Positions 29,796 through 48,714 of a DNA stretch of 64,000 nucleotides are shown here, in pieces. Below the pieces are notes generated by a model. It worked only from the letters and a program-made list of their open reading frames with translations. It was not told the DNA's origin and did not search any database. Position 1 is the first letter of the stretch; every line of letters starts with the position of its first letter. The DNA comes from Roseovarius pacificus. GTDB taxonomy: Bacteria; Pseudomonadota; Alphaproteobacteria; Rhodobacterales; Rhodobacteraceae. A program made the translations under genes and the position numbers. Location: NCBI RefSeq assembly GCF_900142665.1, contig NZ_FRBR01000005.1, forward strand, positions 1 through 64,000, given 5' to 3'.

Positions 29796-30332
29796 TTAAT
29801 TCAGCACCTTCCTGCTGCTTGCAGGAAAAACCAGATCACTCAAATCGGGATATACCTCTTTCAGCACCATGATCTGTTCGGCGCTATCGATGCGCATCAG
29901 AAACCAGAGTTCGCCTTCCTTAATGCCCAGCGTGGTGTTTTGCGTTCGGATACGTGCACCGTTGGCGACAATTGTCGTCGAGGTGGGGATCATGGTGTAA
30001 AGCCGTCCTGTGCCAGACTGCCCTGCCGTGGCGCTGTCGAGGTCAATAGTAAAGTTCTCGAGCGTAATCTGCCTGCCAATCTTTGACATCTCACCACCCG
30101 CTTTCCACCTCATCTCGTCTGTCGTGATGCCTTCTTTGGCAGCCATATGGTCAAGAACAGCGTGAGGAATAAAGCTGGTCAAAGCCCCAAAACTCCCTGC
30201 CTCGACCATGTCCGTGTACAGATCGACAATAAACCCCAAAATCTTCTGATCCTCCTTGGACAGATCAAGGGCCAATACGGGCGACGACATCATGACGGCG
30301 GCGGCAATAAAAGAGTAAATATTTGATTTCAT
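29796..30332 (-). CDS. Secreted protein of unknown function
   Basis: Protein of 178 residues with a clear Sec signal (I-Y-S-F-I-A-A-A-V-M-M-S-S-P-V-L-A-L-D). The mature part is hydrophilic, with helices first (D-L-S-K-E-D-Q-K-I-L-G-F-I-V-D-L) and mostly strands later, and has no cysteine. Base composition is visibly less GC-rich than both flanking dehydrogenase genes, which may indicate later arrival. The ATG at 30332 has GAGG eight bases upstream. No family was recognised. Confidence 0.75.
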   Translation of the reverse strand: MKSNIYSFIAAAVMMSSPVLALDLSKEDQKILGFIVDLYTDMVEAGSFGALTSFIPHAVLDHMAAKEGITTDEMRWKAGGEMSKIGRQITLENFTIDLDSATAGQSGTGRLYTMIPTSTTIVANGARIRTQNTTLGIKEGELWFLMRIDSAEQIMVLKEVYPDLSDLVFPASSRKVLN

Positions 30333-30449
30333 GACATTAGCCTCATAGATGCGCCCTTGGGTGCGTACCGCCTTTTTGTGATGTTCATGCTCTGTATGAG
30401 CTTGCAACTTGCGCGAGGAGGCCTTCGTGCCCTTTCGACGTTTCCTTAT

Positions 30450-42619: not shown

Positions 42620-44479
42620 TTACGGATGCATGGCGTTGATCATGGCGGGCATTTGCTCGCCGATCGTGCCATCAAGTGCCTTGTCGAGAATCACGCGCTT
42701 GGCTTCTGTGGCTTCCTGAGTATTCGCGGTCCGCGCAAATGCGTTTGCGATCGCCAGTTGAGCGCGCCAGGGGTAAGGTTCATTGTCAGAAATCTCGGCA
42801 AATGCGTCTGCCGCCTCGGCCAAACGATCATGTTCTGCCAGTGCCGCCACCATATCTGCACGTAGGCTATTCACCGTGTTGCGGGCCATTTCCCTTGGTG
42901 TGGGGTTGGGACGGTCCTTTGGCCAATAAGCGGGTGGTTCATCTTTGGTATCAGAAATCAGGGGCAACAGGTCTTCCAGTTGTCCGAAGATAATGTCTTT
43001 GTTTCCGAACCGCCCTGCATTCGCCTGTCCACGCAAGGACCACGCCAGGACATCCAGTTTGTGTCCGGGATCATCTGACGCCTCGGACCACATGGTCACG
43101 CGATCCTCATCGCCTGCCGCGGCAAGCGCAGCGACGAGCGCCCTATCAACTCGCCGATGGCGGTTTTTGTGATCAGCGATCCAAAGGCGCAAAACCACAT
43201 CGGCAAGCTGCCCACCGCGCTCCACATCACCCGCCTCCAGCACCCCCTGCGCTGTCAGGCTGATTTCGTACTGCCCCAGGCTCGGGACTTCCGGAATGAG
43301 TGATGGCATCTCCGAAAAATACAGATCGGCGGCGGTTGCAGCGTCTTTTCGTTCGTCTGCATGATATAACATCAACTGGAATACCAGAACAGAGCGCTGT
43401 CTTGGGTCCGTTACCCTGTCCAGCAATGTGTCGATTCCCTCGTCATGTCTTTCTGTGAGTATGTGACGGGCAAGATTCTGCAAAAAAACCGCTTTCAAAG
43501 CCGGGCTTTCAATCGCTGTTAACATTGCTTCATAGCGGCGCAAGGTGTCGTCTGAAATCCTAGGGAAATAATCGCTCTCTGTCTCCAAAAATAGCATCGA
43601 CGTATCCTGAAATAATAACGACGACATATTTTGAATTGCAGTGTCAAAACTTAGCCCGTATTCACGGGCCCTCCCTATTGCGTCCTCCACCCTGCCGGCT
43701 TCGGCCAGAGCTGTGACATGAGAGCTTTGCACCAGCTTTCGTGCCTTGGGTGCGGCCAAATCCAGAAACTCGGATATGTCGTTTTCGGCTTTCCGGTGCA
43801 GCTTGTCATATTCGGCCAGGACGGACACGGATGTCAGGTGTGTCAGCAGAAGACCATATTGCTGGCTGTCCTGAGGCACGGATTTTGCGGTCTGGTACAG
43901 AGTTTCCAGGATAGGGTGAGCATCTTCCGGCCAGCCGTAAAGCGCCATCAATCGAGCAAGGCGCAGCCCTTTCGACAGGGTTATGTGCCTGCCGCGTTCC
44001 TTTGGCAGATGTGGTGCAACCGCGCCATGAATGCGCCGGGCCAAATCCATGTCACCGATTTCAGCGGCGTCTTCTGCCATCGGCAGCATGTCCAGAGCTT
44101 TGTACCGTGAAGTCGGGGGGGCTTCAGCGAGTGTTTCGGTTGCCGCCCAGATAAGTTTGCCTGCGGGCTCTGTTTGACCCGCTGCCGCAAATGCATCGGC
44201 CATACGCCGCAAAGATCGCCAATCCGCATTCGCGGTGTAGGTTTCAATCAGGCGGGTGGCATGGTCAGGCGCCTTTGGTAGCAACATGGCAGCATAGCGC
44301 AGCGCCAGTTCCCGGCGTGCCGTGGGATCGGCTTCGGCGTTGATGATGTGATCGGCGACGGCGGACAGGCAGGATGCATCAATATCTGCCGGGCAGAACT
44401 CCACCGCACTTTGCGCCTGAGCCGGCGCACCCAAACCCAAAGTCGCCAACGCCAGTAAACACAACTTGCGGAACGTCAT
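42620..44479 (-). CDS. Exported helical-repeat protein, unknown function
   Basis: Protein of 619 residues with a Sec signal (K-L-C-L-L-A-L-A-T-L-G-L-G-A-P-A-Q-A-Q). The mature part is almost entirely short helices with A-rich positions, like Sel1/TPR-type repeats (for example A-D-A-F-A-A-A-G-Q-T-E-P-A and A-L-A-E-A-G-R-V-E-D-A-I-G-R-A), with two cysteines near the N-terminus. It is probably a periplasmic scaffold. Base use is less GC-rich than in its neighbours. The ATG at 44479 has AAGGG upstream and is preferred over one five codons earlier. Confidence 0.8.
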   Translation of the reverse strand: MTFRKLCLLALATLGLGAPAQAQSAVEFCPADIDASCLSAVADHIINAEADPTARRELALRYAAMLLPKAPDHATRLIETYTANADWRSLRRMADAFAAAGQTEPAGKLIWAATETLAEAPPTSRYKALDMLPMAEDAAEIGDMDLARRIHGAVAPHLPKERGRHITLSKGLRLARLMALYGWPEDAHPILETLYQTAKSVPQDSQQYGLLLTHLTSVSVLAEYDKLHRKAENDISEFLDLAAPKARKLVQSSHVTALAEAGRVEDAIGRAREYGLSFDTAIQNMSSLLFQDTSMLFLETESDYFPRISDDTLRRYEAMLTAIESPALKAVFLQNLARHILTERHDEGIDTLLDRVTDPRQRSVLVFQLMLYHADERKDAATAADLYFSEMPSLIPEVPSLGQYEISLTAQGVLEAGDVERGGQLADVVLRLWIADHKNRHRRVDRALVAALAAAGDEDRVTMWSEASDDPGHKLDVLAWSLRGQANAGRFGNKDIIFGQLEDLLPLISDTKDEPPAYWPKDRPNPTPREMARNTVNSLRADMVAALAEHDRLAEAADAFAEISDNEPYPWRAQLAIANAFARTANTQEATEAKRVILDKALDGTIGEQMPAMINAMHP

Positions 44480-44749
44480 GGCGAAACCCTTCATCGACCT
44501 GGTAACATGTAGTGGTTTACCCCTGCACGTTCATGTACGCCTTTGCAAGTCGTGACGGCGCTGCCGTGAAATCCGGCGTCAGGCCCGTAATTCTCCTGAC
44601 TGTCGTCATGCCGCCCTGAGGAACAGCCATCACATGGACGGCCCTCGTGTGAAGTCCGGGTTTCGGTCATTGGCGTCACACGGCTCAATTGCCGCGCATG
44701 CCTCTGTGCGGTGGCGTGCACCCTCCTAGGTTCGCAGGCACCACTACCC

Positions 44750-45155: not shown

Positions 45156-46955
45156 ATGACACCGCTCTCGCATATCCGCAATTTCTCGATCGTGGCGCAT
45201 ATCGACCACGGGAAATCCACGCTCGCCGACCGTCTGATCCAGATGACCGACACCGTGGCCGAACGCGACATGAAGGAACAGCTTCTGGACGCGATGGATA
45301 TCGAACGCGAGCGCGGAATCACCATCAAGGCCAACACCGTCCGCATCGACTATACCGCCGAAAACGGCGAGCAATACGTGCTCAACCTCATCGACACGCC
45401 CGGCCACGTGGATTTCGCCTACGAGGTCTCCCGCTCCATGCGCGCGGTCGAGGGCTCGCTTCTGGTGGTCGACTCCACCCAGGGGGTCGAGGCGCAGACG
45501 CTGGCCAATGTCTATCAGGCGATCGAGGCCGACCACGAACTGATCCCCGTGCTGAACAAGATCGACCTGCCCGCCAGCGACCTCGACCGCGTCGCCGAAC
45601 AGATCGAGGACGTGATCGGCATCGACGCCTCGGGTGCGATTCCGGTGTCGGCCAAGACCGGGCAGGGTATCCGCGAAACGCTCGAGGCCATCGTTCACCA
45701 CCTGCCCGCCCCCACGGGCGACGCCAGCGCGCCGCTCAAGGCCATGCTGGTGGACAGCAAATACGATCCCTACCTTGGCGTCGTCGTGCTGGTGCGGATC
45801 ATGGACGGGGTGATGAAGAAGGGCGACAAGATCCGCATGATGCAGACCGGCGCCACCTATGGCATCGACCGCATCGGCGTGTTTCGCCCCGAAATGACCG
45901 TCGTCGATGAGCTGGGGCCGGGCGAGATCGGCTTTATCACCGCCTCGATCAAGCAGGTCCGCGACACCAGGGTGGGCGATACGATCACCCATGAAAAACG
46001 CCCCTGCGAAACGCCCCTGCCGGGCTTCAAACCCTCGGTCCCGGTGGTGTTCTGCGGCCTTTTCCCCGTCGACTCCGCCGAATTCGAAAGCCTGCGCGAC
46101 GCGATCGAGAAACTGGCGCTGAACGACGCCTCCTTCTCCTTCGAAATGGAAAGCTCCGCCGCACTCGGATTCGGCTTCCGCTGCGGCTTCCTGGGCCTGC
46201 TGCACCTCGAGGTGATCCGCGACCGGATCGAACGCGAATACGATATCGACCTGATCACCACCGCGCCGTCGGTGGTCTATCATGTCTACATGAAAGACGG
46301 CTCCATGCAGGAGCTGCACAACCCCGCCGACATGCCCGACCTGACCTATGTGGATCACGTCGAAGAGCCGCGCATCAAGGCGACGATCCTCGTGCCCGAC
46401 GAATATCTCGGCGACGTTCTGAAACTCTGCCAGGACCGGCGCGGCATCCAGATGGACCTGACCTATGCGGGCGCCCGCGCGATGGTGGTCTATGACCTGC
46501 CCCTGAACGAGGTGGTGTTCGATTTCTACGACCGCCTGAAATCGGTGACCAAGGGCTATGCGTCGTTCGATTACGAGATCACCGGCTACCGGCAGGACAA
46601 TCTCGTGAAAATGCAGGTGCTGGTCAACGACGAACCCGTCGACGCCCTGTCGATGATGGTACACCGCGACCGGGCCGAAATGCGCGGCCGCGCCATGTGC
46701 GAAAAGCTCAAGGAACTGATCCCGCGCCATATGTTCAAGATCCCGATCCAGGCCGCCATCGGCGGCAAGGTCATCGCCCGCGAAACCCTTTCGGCCATGC
46801 GCAAGGACGTGACCGCCAAATGCTACGGCGGCGACGTGACCCGTAAAAAGAAACTGCTGGAAAAGCAGAAGGCGGGGAAAAAGAAGATGCGCCAGTTCGG
46901 CAAGGTGGAAATCCCGCAACAGGCGTTTATCTCCGCGCTCAAGATGGATGAGTGA
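45156..46955 (+). CDS. lepA: Elongation factor 4 (LepA)
   Basis: GTPase of 599 residues that acts on the ribosome during translation or assembly. G1 loop A-H-I-D-H-G-K-S-T (14-22), G3 I-D-T-P-G-H-V-D, G4 N-K-I-D, and the LepA-specific C-terminal domain ending [14 protein letters not shown]. It has the normal length. It is usually followed by lepB; here the next gene is an AT-rich HEPN-like gene. No ribosome site precedes the ATG. Confidence 0.97.
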
Positions 46956-46996
46956 TCCATTTGAGGCGTGACAGGCTCCCCCCGTCTGAACCGTAG

Positions 46997-47017
46997 GGTG
47001 CGCATTCACTGCGCACC
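46997..47017. repeat. REP-like hairpin after lepA
   Basis: GGTGCGCA (46997-47004) pairs with TGCGCACC (47010-47017), an 8-bp stem with a 5-base loop, inside GTAGGGTGCGCA...TGCGCACCGCC. Similar elements are common between genes in this group (memory, not searched). Confidence 0.5.
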
Positions 47018-47137
47018 GCCACGCCACATTCGCCCGCTATCCCCGGCGCGGCTTCTTGAAAAACGCGAATTGCAATGCGTGAGAAGATACAATCATGCAA
47101 TCATGCAATTTTTGAGAAGAGTTTTAAGATTATGTTC

Positions 47138-47164
47138 GCGCTTGGTTTTTACTTGCGCTTGGTT
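47138..47164 (+). repeat. Direct repeats before the HEPN-like gene
   Basis: GCGCTTGGTT occurs at 47138-47147 and 47155-47164, 17 bases apart, in the AT-rich leader of the HEPN-like gene. A further tandem repeat AATCATGC lies at 47091-47106. They may be regulatory or a trace of insertion. Confidence 0.5.
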
Positions 47165-47199
47165 CATTTCAATTTGGAAGGTTTTTGGGGGGAACTGAT

Positions 47200-47886
47200 A
47201 TGGGAGGCGCCAAAGAGTACTATGACCTTTTGCTGCATGAGCTCTACACAGCGCGGATAGAGTGGCGACTTTACCGATCACTATTTGGCACAAATAAAGA
47301 AACGGTTGATTTGCTGAATGAAATTTCAGGACTGACAGCACAAACTCTTGAAAGAGTTCTGTTTGAACGCACTCTTTTAAACCTGCGAAAATTGACCGAC
47401 CCTTATGAGAAACAGCGCGGTAAGCATCTCTCAGTAACCACGAAAGGGCTTTCTCGCTATTTTGATTGTTCGGATAACACATTGAGGAAACTAGTTAACC
47501 AAGCGGAAAGAGCAGCGAGTTTCGCGCGGGATTGGTCGAACAAGAGGATTGCTCATAGTGATCTAGACTACAAAGCACGCAAAGCGAAACTCGAAAAGGC
47601 CAGTAGAGCAGCAGTTGAAGATGCGCTTACGTCAATTGCCGATGTACTAAAGTGGGTCGCCCATGAACACTTTGACACTACACTTGTCACTCATCCCATA
47701 CCGCCACTCGACGACGAGCGGCGTTTTCTAAAGGCGCTCTACCTTGGAAAATCGGAAATGGAGCGTGTGTCTGGAAAGAAGCAATTGCTCTTGGAGCAAA
47801 GACGTTATGCCGAACTTGATGAATTTCGCGCAGTAAGTGAAATTCCAGATTGGCTAGTAAGAAAGAACCCACCAATTGATGTCTAG
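47200..47886 (+). CDS. HEPN/AbiU2-like protein in an AT-rich insertion
   Basis: Protein of 228 residues, nearly all helical. The centre (residues 108-122) reads F-A-R-D-W-S-N-K-R-I-A-H-S-D-L, matching the R-N-K-x-x-A-H core of HEPN proteins of the AbiU2 type. The usual first Arg is Ser113 here, leaving Arg110 and Arg116 as candidates beside His119. HEPN proteins of this kind act as RNases in phage abortive infection or as toxins, but activity here is not certain. The gene is strikingly AT-rich compared with lepA and its other neighbours, with different codon use, so it was probably acquired. ATG 47200 follows GGGGGGAA. No partner antitoxin is adjacent. Confidence 0.72.
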   Translation: MGGAKEYYDLLLHELYTARIEWRLYRSLFGTNKETVDLLNEISGLTAQTLERVLFERTLLNLRKLTDPYEKQRGKHLSVTTKGLSRYFDCSDNTLRKLVNQAERAASFARDWSNKRIAHSDLDYKARKAKLEKASRAAVEDALTSIADVLKWVAHEHFDTTLVTHPIPPLDDERRFLKALYLGKSEMERVSGKKQLLLEQRRYAELDEFRAVSEIPDWLVRKNPPIDV

Positions 47887-48120
47887 TTAACGCTGGGATC
47901 TTAAAGAAATCTACGTGTATTCTCCGAGAACGCCGACGTTCGGGCGCGCGCCGGCTTTGCCCCGGCTGGTCGATCCGAATGCATCGTATCGTCCGGCGCC
48001 CACCCTCCGGCCAACTGGCGCACCACCCATCGCCCTCGGCACCATCCCGCCGATCCGTTCGTCTCCCCCCTCCGCCGTCCTATCTCCCTAAATACCAACC
48101 AAAACGGGAGGACCAACCAA

Positions 48121-48359
48121 TGAAACATCTTGCATTCACCGCCATCCTTGCCCTGATCGCGGCTCCGGCCGTGGCCAGCCAGTGCCCGATGGACATGTCC
48201 AGGATCGACGCGGCGCTGGAAACCGCGCAGCTTTCGGACGAGCAACTGGCCGAGGTCGAGGCCCTGCGCGCCGAGGGCGAAGAACTGCACGCCGCGGGCG
48301 ATCACGCGGCCTCGGTCGAAACGCTGGGGCAGGCCAAGGATATCCTCGGGATCGAATAA
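48121..48359 (+). CDS. Small exported protein of 79 residues
   Basis: A Sec signal (K-H-L-A-F-T-A-I-L-A-L-I-A-A-P-A-V-A-S-Q) precedes about 60 mature residues of acidic helices (D-A-A-L-E-T-A-Q-L-S-D-E-Q-L-A-E-V-E). One mature cysteine lies close to the cleavage site. It probably sits in the periplasm as a helical hairpin. Function unknown. GGGAGGA ribosome site. The 234 bases before it (47887-48120) show nothing recognisable. Confidence 0.75.
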
Positions 48360-48465
48360 CAGCGCAGGGGTGGCGGGCACATTCCCTCACGTCTGCTTGA
48401 GATTCGTGGCATCGCCGCCCCGCAGCCCCCATATCTAAAGGATTGAGACGAAAGGAGGTCCTCAA

Positions 48466-48714
48466 ATGGACAGACTGAGCCTTGTTCTCATCCTTGCCGT
48501 GGGCCCCACCCTGACCGGCAGCTTCCTGACCGTCGTTCTGGGTCTGGGCTACTACAGCTGGCCTGCCATCGCCGGGGCGATCCTGCTCGGGCTCGTGCTG
48601 ACATGGCCTGTGTCCTATGTGGTGTCGCGCTGGATTAAACGGGACGATCCCTATTTCGATCACACACGGCGCAAGGGCAGCCTGATGCCCGACCCCGACG
48701 CGCGCGAAGTCTGA
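48466..48714 (+). CDS. Small two-helix membrane protein A
   Basis: Protein of 82 residues with two membrane helices (about 5-27 and 33-53) and a charged C-terminal tail (R-D-D-P-Y-F-D-H-T-R-R). It shares the pattern L-x-L-x-x-x-x-G-x-T-L-x-G-x with the two small proteins at 49534 and 49800. Perfect ribosome site AAAGGAGG. Function unknown. The 216 bases after it (48715-48930) hold no gene. Confidence 0.75.
   Translation: MDRLSLVLILAVGPTLTGSFLTVVLGLGYYSWPAIAGAILLGLVLTWPVSYVVSRWIKRDDPYFDHTRRKGSLMPDPDAREV

Follow-up and report, generated by a model that had tools for sequence, protein, structure and literature searches.

Behind lepA in Roseovarius pacificus lies an isolated, AT-rich gene for a HEPN-like protein with an altered active-site motif. 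Can such a gene act as a defence system on its own, and what brought it to this position? The initial annotation, made from the letters alone, had suggested a single-gene abortive-infection system. We examined this proposal in the 64,000-nt stretch of DNA that surrounds the gene (hereafter, the window) and in related genomes.

An AT-rich insertion behind lepA

The features of the locus are collected in Table 1. The open reading frame starts with the ATG at 47200, just ahead of which a GGGGGG run can be read directly, and its stop codon ends at 47886. GC content is 0.460 in the gene and 0.375 in the leader (47056-47199), compared to 0.632 in the whole window, 0.67 at 46956-47055, and 0.62 at 47887-48120. 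Gene and leader are the most AT-rich stretch of the window: among 687-nt stretches sampled every 50 nt across it (a 500-nt profile was also computed), those with the lowest GC start at 47001-47251. The claim that gene and leader are much more AT-rich than everything around them therefore stands, except for positions 47000-47055, which had been included in the claimed interval. These are GC-rich, partly consist of a dispersed palindromic repeat, and lie outside the AT-rich unit.

Table 1. Features of the HEPN_AbiU2-like locus (window coordinates)
Feature	Position	Strand	Remarks
lepA, left neighbour of the insertion	45156..46955	+	Pfam LepA_C
Dispersed palindromic (REP-like) repeat	46993..47017	+	between lepA and the HEPN gene
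AT-rich leader	47056..47199	+	GC 0.375; RNA fold z -0.22; not conserved in the four closest relatives
8-nt tandem repeat CAATCATG, 2.5 copies	47090..47109	+	sequence CAATCATGCAAT, period 8
Direct repeat GCGCTTGGTT, two copies 17 nt apart	47138..47164	+	copies at 47138 and 47155
HEPN_AbiU2-like gene	47200..47886	+	228 aa, stop included; ORF, profile, and AF2 model
Motif RDWSNKRIAH	47527..47556	+	codons 110-119: Arg110, Ser113 (usual place of Arg), Arg116, His119
C-terminal motif P-x-W-L (PDWL)	47845..47856	+	codons 216-219; shared with the nearest relatives (alignments A1, A2)
79-aa gene, right neighbour	48120..48359	+	272 nt after lepA in G464, 1164 nt in the window

Among the genus members searched, G464 has the most similar lepA (95%). 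It has no HEPN gene after lepA, aligns with the window as far as 46953 and then from 48037 onwards, and has the 79-aa gene correspondingly closer to lepA (Table 1). This 79-aa ORF has no Pfam match and is conserved after lepA in G464. By Pfam, the window neighbours are LepA, an acylphosphatase, a PhnA-domain protein, and two small ORFs without a match. Neither a partner-like gene nor an adjoining integrase was recognised among them, and a Sigma-70 promoter scan of 46900-48150 found no promoter (1.2 expected by chance), which carries no information. Insertion guided by a tRNA was rejected, as no tRNA was found in the window. The description of an isolated gene without an antitoxin fits the wider picture as well: besides parE and ordinary chromosomal genes, nothing recurs beside the carriers of relatives, whose neighbours, where flanks were listed, were mostly judged by ORF reading rather than by profile.

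Elsewhere in the window, a 624-aa minus-strand ORF at 42620-44494 has a GC content of 0.53-0.60, below that of its surroundings; its sole Pfam hit, to TPR, falls under the threshold. The other low-GC stretch (500-nt GC 0.52) holds a 203-aa minus-strand ORF at 29796-30407, which has no Pfam match and, by eye, a signal-like start.

Family membership and predicted fold

A profile search against AbiU2 and other HEPN families, suggested with the initial annotation, makes the protein a clear member of HEPN_AbiU2 (PF18734; 98.7 bits, E 4e-28, cut-off 26.8, residues 4-172). The profile exceeded its cut-off in nine of ten proteins scanned, L132 remaining below it at 25.4 bits vs 26.8, and the closest relatives of the window protein (L070-L073) scored 60.4-73.0 bits. 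The RX4-6H motif given for AbiU2 in PMC3710099, as far as the consulted part of that paper describes it, is incomplete here: His119 is present and Arg is replaced by Ser. Judged by sequence comparison, the protein is thus an AbiU2 member by profile and non-canonical by motif.

Other resources added little. PADLOC-DB 2.0.0 contains no model for the window protein, only HamA appearing at 12.6 bits (E 0.017); NCBIfam and PHROGs gave no match, and the PDB no credible sequence relative (best E 0.13). The AlphaFold (AF2) model is of good confidence and mainly helical, with a mean pLDDT of 87.9 and a pTM of 0.81. A fold search of the PDB returned no match at E <= 0.001, in a set where a missing family would not show, and the HEPN chains 3jrt (Z 8.2) and HepT 6m6u (Z 7.5) scored no differently from many unrelated helix bundles. 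The former is an integron-cassette HEPN (PMC3710099).

The window genome has no second HEPN_AbiU2 match. When used alone as query against the genome contigs, the window protein found no relative, while a four-row alignment found 26 loci. Distant relatives (25-34% identical) were detected by tblastn in four plasmid records (Xanthomonas, Agrobacterium) and one phage record, and a scan of viral contigs gave one relative, L096, with Arg in its motif. More distant relatives are also present in other families and phyla.

A clade with serine in place of the motif arginine

Profile and motif alignment agree on a HEPN-like protein with Ser at the usual place of Arg, and the residue numbers given earlier (Arg110, Arg116, and His119, with Ser at 113) are correct. 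What had been taken for a peculiarity of this gene is instead the trait of a clade, as all five intact members found have Ser. In the 21 rows of alignment A2, His119 is invariant and the position six residues ahead of it (His-6) is Arg in 14, Ser in five, Val in one (L132), and Ala in one (L130). The Ser rows are the window protein and L070-L073, its four closest intact relatives, which come from two Tateyamaria, a Sulfitobacter, and a Rhodobacteraceae metagenome bin of the window's genus (G439). In the tree, a branch with support 95/98 sets these five apart, and L132 and L130 join them weakly (56/89). They are 46-57% identical, with frames open throughout and many invariant residues; dS is saturated among their genes, which precludes dN/dS analysis. 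Across 394 genomes of the family, 19 proteins match PF18734, and 17 of these carry Arg (15 at His-6, two with a four-residue spacer), one Ser (the window protein), and one Ala (G246). The motif of G456 keeps Arg (RHKSIAH), and L078 (68% over 75 residues) has lost its frame ahead of the motif.

Other basic residues of the same region are well conserved. Arg110, nine residues before His, is found in 19/21 rows, with Lys in L073 and Phe in L132, and each of the five Ser rows has Lys115. The model places residues 107-119 in a single helix, where Arg110 lies one turn from position 113; from this geometry we infer that Arg110 could take over from the missing Arg. For the HEPN-T family PaREP1/8, other basic residues have been proposed to replace Arg, and non-catalytic RNA binding has been proposed for HEPN families without the motif (PMC3710099). 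The same paper states that Arg is required in the KEN domain and PrrC, and changes at Arg or at His abolish the toxicity of AbiF of C. difficile (PMC12373285). Since AbiF, the KEN domain, and PrrC all depend on their Arg, the Ser clade may, by analogy, be no RNase. Whether it cuts RNA at all is the main doubt about this system. No paper on an Arg-less AbiU2 was recognised among the literature matches listed, which is a weak negative.

Leader and repeats

Two sets of direct repeats had been reported ahead of the gene, and both are present in the leader (Table 1). In 2000 resamplings of the 140-nt leader with a first-order Markov model, one such repeat (at least 10 nt within 40 nt) arose in 101 and two arose in 15, so the repeats, which were chosen post hoc, are mildly unusual. 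A general repeat search at default settings did not list them. The four closest relatives do not share them, and the predicted folding of the leader does not surpass that of shuffled sequence; thus, nothing supports the repeats as part of the system. Rfam gave no match in 46500-48500.

The palindromic repeat between lepA and the HEPN gene occurs once in the window (at most three mismatches). The rest of the genome yielded nine more partial matches (ten candidates scored). One copy (L129:2705-2730) lies 66 nt past the last codon of parE in the same genome, just after the empty site described below.

Distribution and sites of insertion

Within the genus, the subfamily was found in 3/84 genomes (that of the window, G439, and G456), and a protein search of the family found it in 6/394, including the window genome. 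Of the near-subfamily carriers inspected, 8/14 have the HEPN gene ending within 9 nt of the parE stop, one has it near parE, and two have it after lepA. In the carriers with parE contact (L070-L074, G044, G142, and G456) the HEPN gene and parE converge. Their stop codons share 2 nt in L070, L071, L073, and G456, and are separated by 1 nt in L074, 6 nt in L072 and G044, and 9 nt in G142. The gene of G013 lies 1.2 kb from parE. The lepA-following carriers are the window genome (G000) and G246, whose ORF is codirectional with lepA, has its likely ATG ~190 nt after it, and runs to the contig end. In the remaining three of 14 (L076, L077, and L078) the gene lies elsewhere or has no assigned site, and parE was not seen beside it in the sequence stretch examined. 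A distant HEPN_AbiU2 protein of G373 (L135:3498-4202, 96.4 bits) is encoded 20 nt after parE and codirectional with it.

The parE gene was called by its gyrase-B domains in Pfam (L073 copy). We take it to encode a topoisomerase IV subunit and not a gyrase subunit, a reading that fits the presence of a second parE-like copy, 43% identical, in the window genome. The parE site of the window genome itself is empty (L129:2638-2960), and the next conserved gene follows after ~330 nt. The four other Ser-clade members are all located at parE, so that a move of the HEPN gene from there to lepA, in the lineage of the window, would be the simplest reading. In G037 (L155), parE and lepA are arranged 3' end to 3' end, ~1.5 kb apart, with a 175-aa AT-rich ORF between them; one slot can therefore border both genes. 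Such a shared slot, or recombination between repeat copies, may be a route for the move.

The 3' flanks of parE and lepA as hot spots

Hot-spot ORFs were called mechanically by a minimum length of 120 aa, a GC lower than that of the core gene by 0.08 or more, and a start within 250 nt of the core-gene stop; the genomes sampled per gene overlap partly and lean to those nearest the query. A lone AT-rich ORF occupies the 3' flank of parE in 30/56 sampled Rhodobacteraceae genomes, and an AT-rich ORF occupies that of lepA in 16/54 (8/26 in the genus, 8/28 in the family). The 3' controls gave 0/29 for an acetyl-CoA-synthetase-like gene (acs) and 1/29 for the serine hydroxymethyltransferase gene (glyA). 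Fisher tests against these pooled controls, which are only two genes and lie close together in the window, gave 5e-11 for parE and 3e-5 for lepA. On the 5' sides, the counts were 0/26 for parE, 3/29 and 0/29 for lepA, 3/29 for acs, and 0/29 for glyA.

Two of the parE flanks with cargo (L136 from G140 and L139 from G007) had been chosen out of sequence, since their genomes have HEPN_AbiU2 elsewhere, and without them the count is 28/54. L115 and L111 (HEPN carriers) and L109 (a duplicate) are left out of the parE count, and L017 and L130 out of the lepA count; with loci chosen for their HEPN gene included, lepA gives 9/31 and 9/27. Four parE loci were dropped for want of a parE end or of a flank of 700 nt, as were three genus and one family lepA loci. 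Examples of parE flanks with cargo are L099, L107, L116, L123, L136, L138, L142, and L150, which represent many unrelated families. No paper on parE or lepA slots was recognised among the literature matches listed, again a weak negative.

Cargo of the slots

Pfam was used to scan 40/46 cargo ORFs (all 30 of parE and 10/16 of lepA; two HEPN genes are not counted). The matches comprise AbiTii, FRG (2), MrcB_N, SocA_Panacea, DUF2971 (2), DUF4238, RNase_T, P63C, HARE-HTH, Trypsin_2, HTH_25, VasI, and BRCT, with HEPN_RiboL-PSP just below the cut-off, and 24/40 proteins had no match. PADLOC was applied to 42/46 ORFs (L102, L175, L176, and L193 excluded). Among the matches listed (25 of 29 families), PDC-S31 has three members, PDC-S15 and PDC-S48 two each, and PDC-S45, PDC-M19B, AbiTii, and DEDDh one each; PDC presumably denotes a phage-defence candidate. 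A control set of neighbour ORFs (A4; 42/56, selected on codon-position GC) gave matches to cyclase models (up to three members), SspA (2), DndA (2), and a TIR effector (1).

The link of the cargo to defence is guilt by association, some of it being defence-like, most of no recognised family, and some not defence-like. Given the 24 scanned proteins without a Pfam match, the VasI protein, which points to secretion, and the PADLOC matches in the controls, the hot spots as such may not be defence sites. Two related parE cargo genes from different genera (L119:955-1488 and L161:2625-3128) have no Pfam match and encode N-R-N-L-x-A-H-G, which by eye recalls HEPN-like motifs.

Interpretation

We consider a horizontally exchanged one-gene defence locus the best explanation, with a probability of roughly 0.58. 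The HEPN active site of this locus has most likely been rebuilt or disabled, and its anti-phage function is putative. A single-gene defence role becomes likelier because the family prefers the parE site, which holds lone AT-rich genes, some of them known or candidate defence genes. The protein would dimerise as HEPN proteins do and stay inactive until a phage infects the cell, whereupon it would cut or bind RNA and stop growth. The clade could stay functional via conserved basic residues of the same helix, namely Arg110 one turn earlier and Lys115. The cassette would be exchanged through recombination within the conserved genes on either side, and not by an enzyme that it encodes. Such an infection-triggered single-gene effector would resemble Tha in outline and AbiU2 in family. 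A bolder generalisation, which we hold only tentatively and rather doubt, is that Rhodobacteraceae keep integrase-free slots for single-gene defence where parE and lepA end, that AT-rich one-gene cassettes are exchanged there via the conserved flanks, that the HEPN gene moved between two such slots, and that the antiviral RNase site of its clade works without the Arg needed by the cited HEPN RNases.

The strongest competitor is a protein that no longer cuts, in which RNase activity was lost and which binds RNA or pairs with another HEPN protein as a regulator, decoy, or dominant negative. This is possible but not probable. No known member of the clade retains the motif Arg, nor do L132 (Val) and L130 (Ala); AbiF (PMC12373285), PrrC, and the KEN domain require it, and non-catalytic RNA binding is on record as a proposal for motif-less HEPN families (PMC3710099). 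However, a dead site would need neither the invariant His119 nor Arg110 in 19/21 rows nor Lys115 in 5/5 Ser rows, and the window genome offers no second HEPN_AbiU2 as a partner. Improbable in our view is a neutral or decaying passenger at a permissive site, functionless here. Rarity and patchiness (6/394 family and 3/84 genus genomes, the window genome included in each) would suit it, as would the broken relatives, since the frame of L078 ends early and L076 and L093 are split between frames; by contrast, the five open Ser-clade genes, still sharing many invariant residues at 46-57% identity, suggest selection there.

We give very little credence to a toxin restrained by an RNA antitoxin from the repeat-bearing leader, in the manner of type III systems. 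The idea draws on AbiF, another Abi HEPN protein, which an RNA encoded upstream and containing two repeats keeps in check (PMC12373285), and on the two short repeats of the leader. However, these measure 8 and 10 nt, compared to 33-50 nt for such systems in the part of PMC12373285 consulted. No conserved, structured repeat RNA was found upstream of the gene, and an RNA antitoxin in the leader was rejected on fold (z -0.22), conservation in the four closest relatives, and Rfam (46500-48500).

That the protein matches the AbiU2 profile is unremarkable; among the literature matches listed, neither the Arg-to-Ser clade nor the parE and lepA slots could be recognised, a weak negative. A natural Arg-less HEPN clade beside Arg-bearing relatives at the same site is a test of the necessity of the motif Arg in HEPN defence. 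The slots would offer a cheap route to single-gene defence candidates, considering that more than half of the scanned cargo has no Pfam family.

Comparison with known systems

The window protein resembles HEPN_AbiU2 (PF18734, named after AbiU2 of Lactococcus lactis) in its profile match over residues 4-172, the conserved His, and the flanking basic residues, and differs from it in Ser for the motif Arg and an extra conserved tail that ends in P-x-W-L. AbiU2 as given in Table 1 of PMC3710099 has a conserved Rx4-6H and operons with Sel1-repeat or R-M genes, whereas the gene described here stands alone. No Sel1-repeat or R-M genes of the kind listed there were found among the window neighbours, and relatives were judged from ORF lists. 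PaREP1/8 has likewise kept His, lost Arg, and conserved other basic residues, but is an archaeal HEPN-T family and not AbiU2 (PMC3710099).

AbiF is likewise an Abi HEPN protein without a protein antitoxin; it differs in its intact RNQCAH motif and in a conserved upstream repeat RNA, as described in the consulted part of PMC12373285, and no such RNA was found here. Tha, a HEPN RNase of S. aureus prophages that is triggered by a phage tail protein, is also a single HEPN effector and, likened by description, a model for infection-triggered destruction of RNA (PMC11087260). Unlike the window protein, Tha has 301 aa, a C-terminal HEPN domain, an intact R-N-S-I-M-H motif, and a noncontiguous operon with an inhibitor, according to the part of PMC11087260 consulted.
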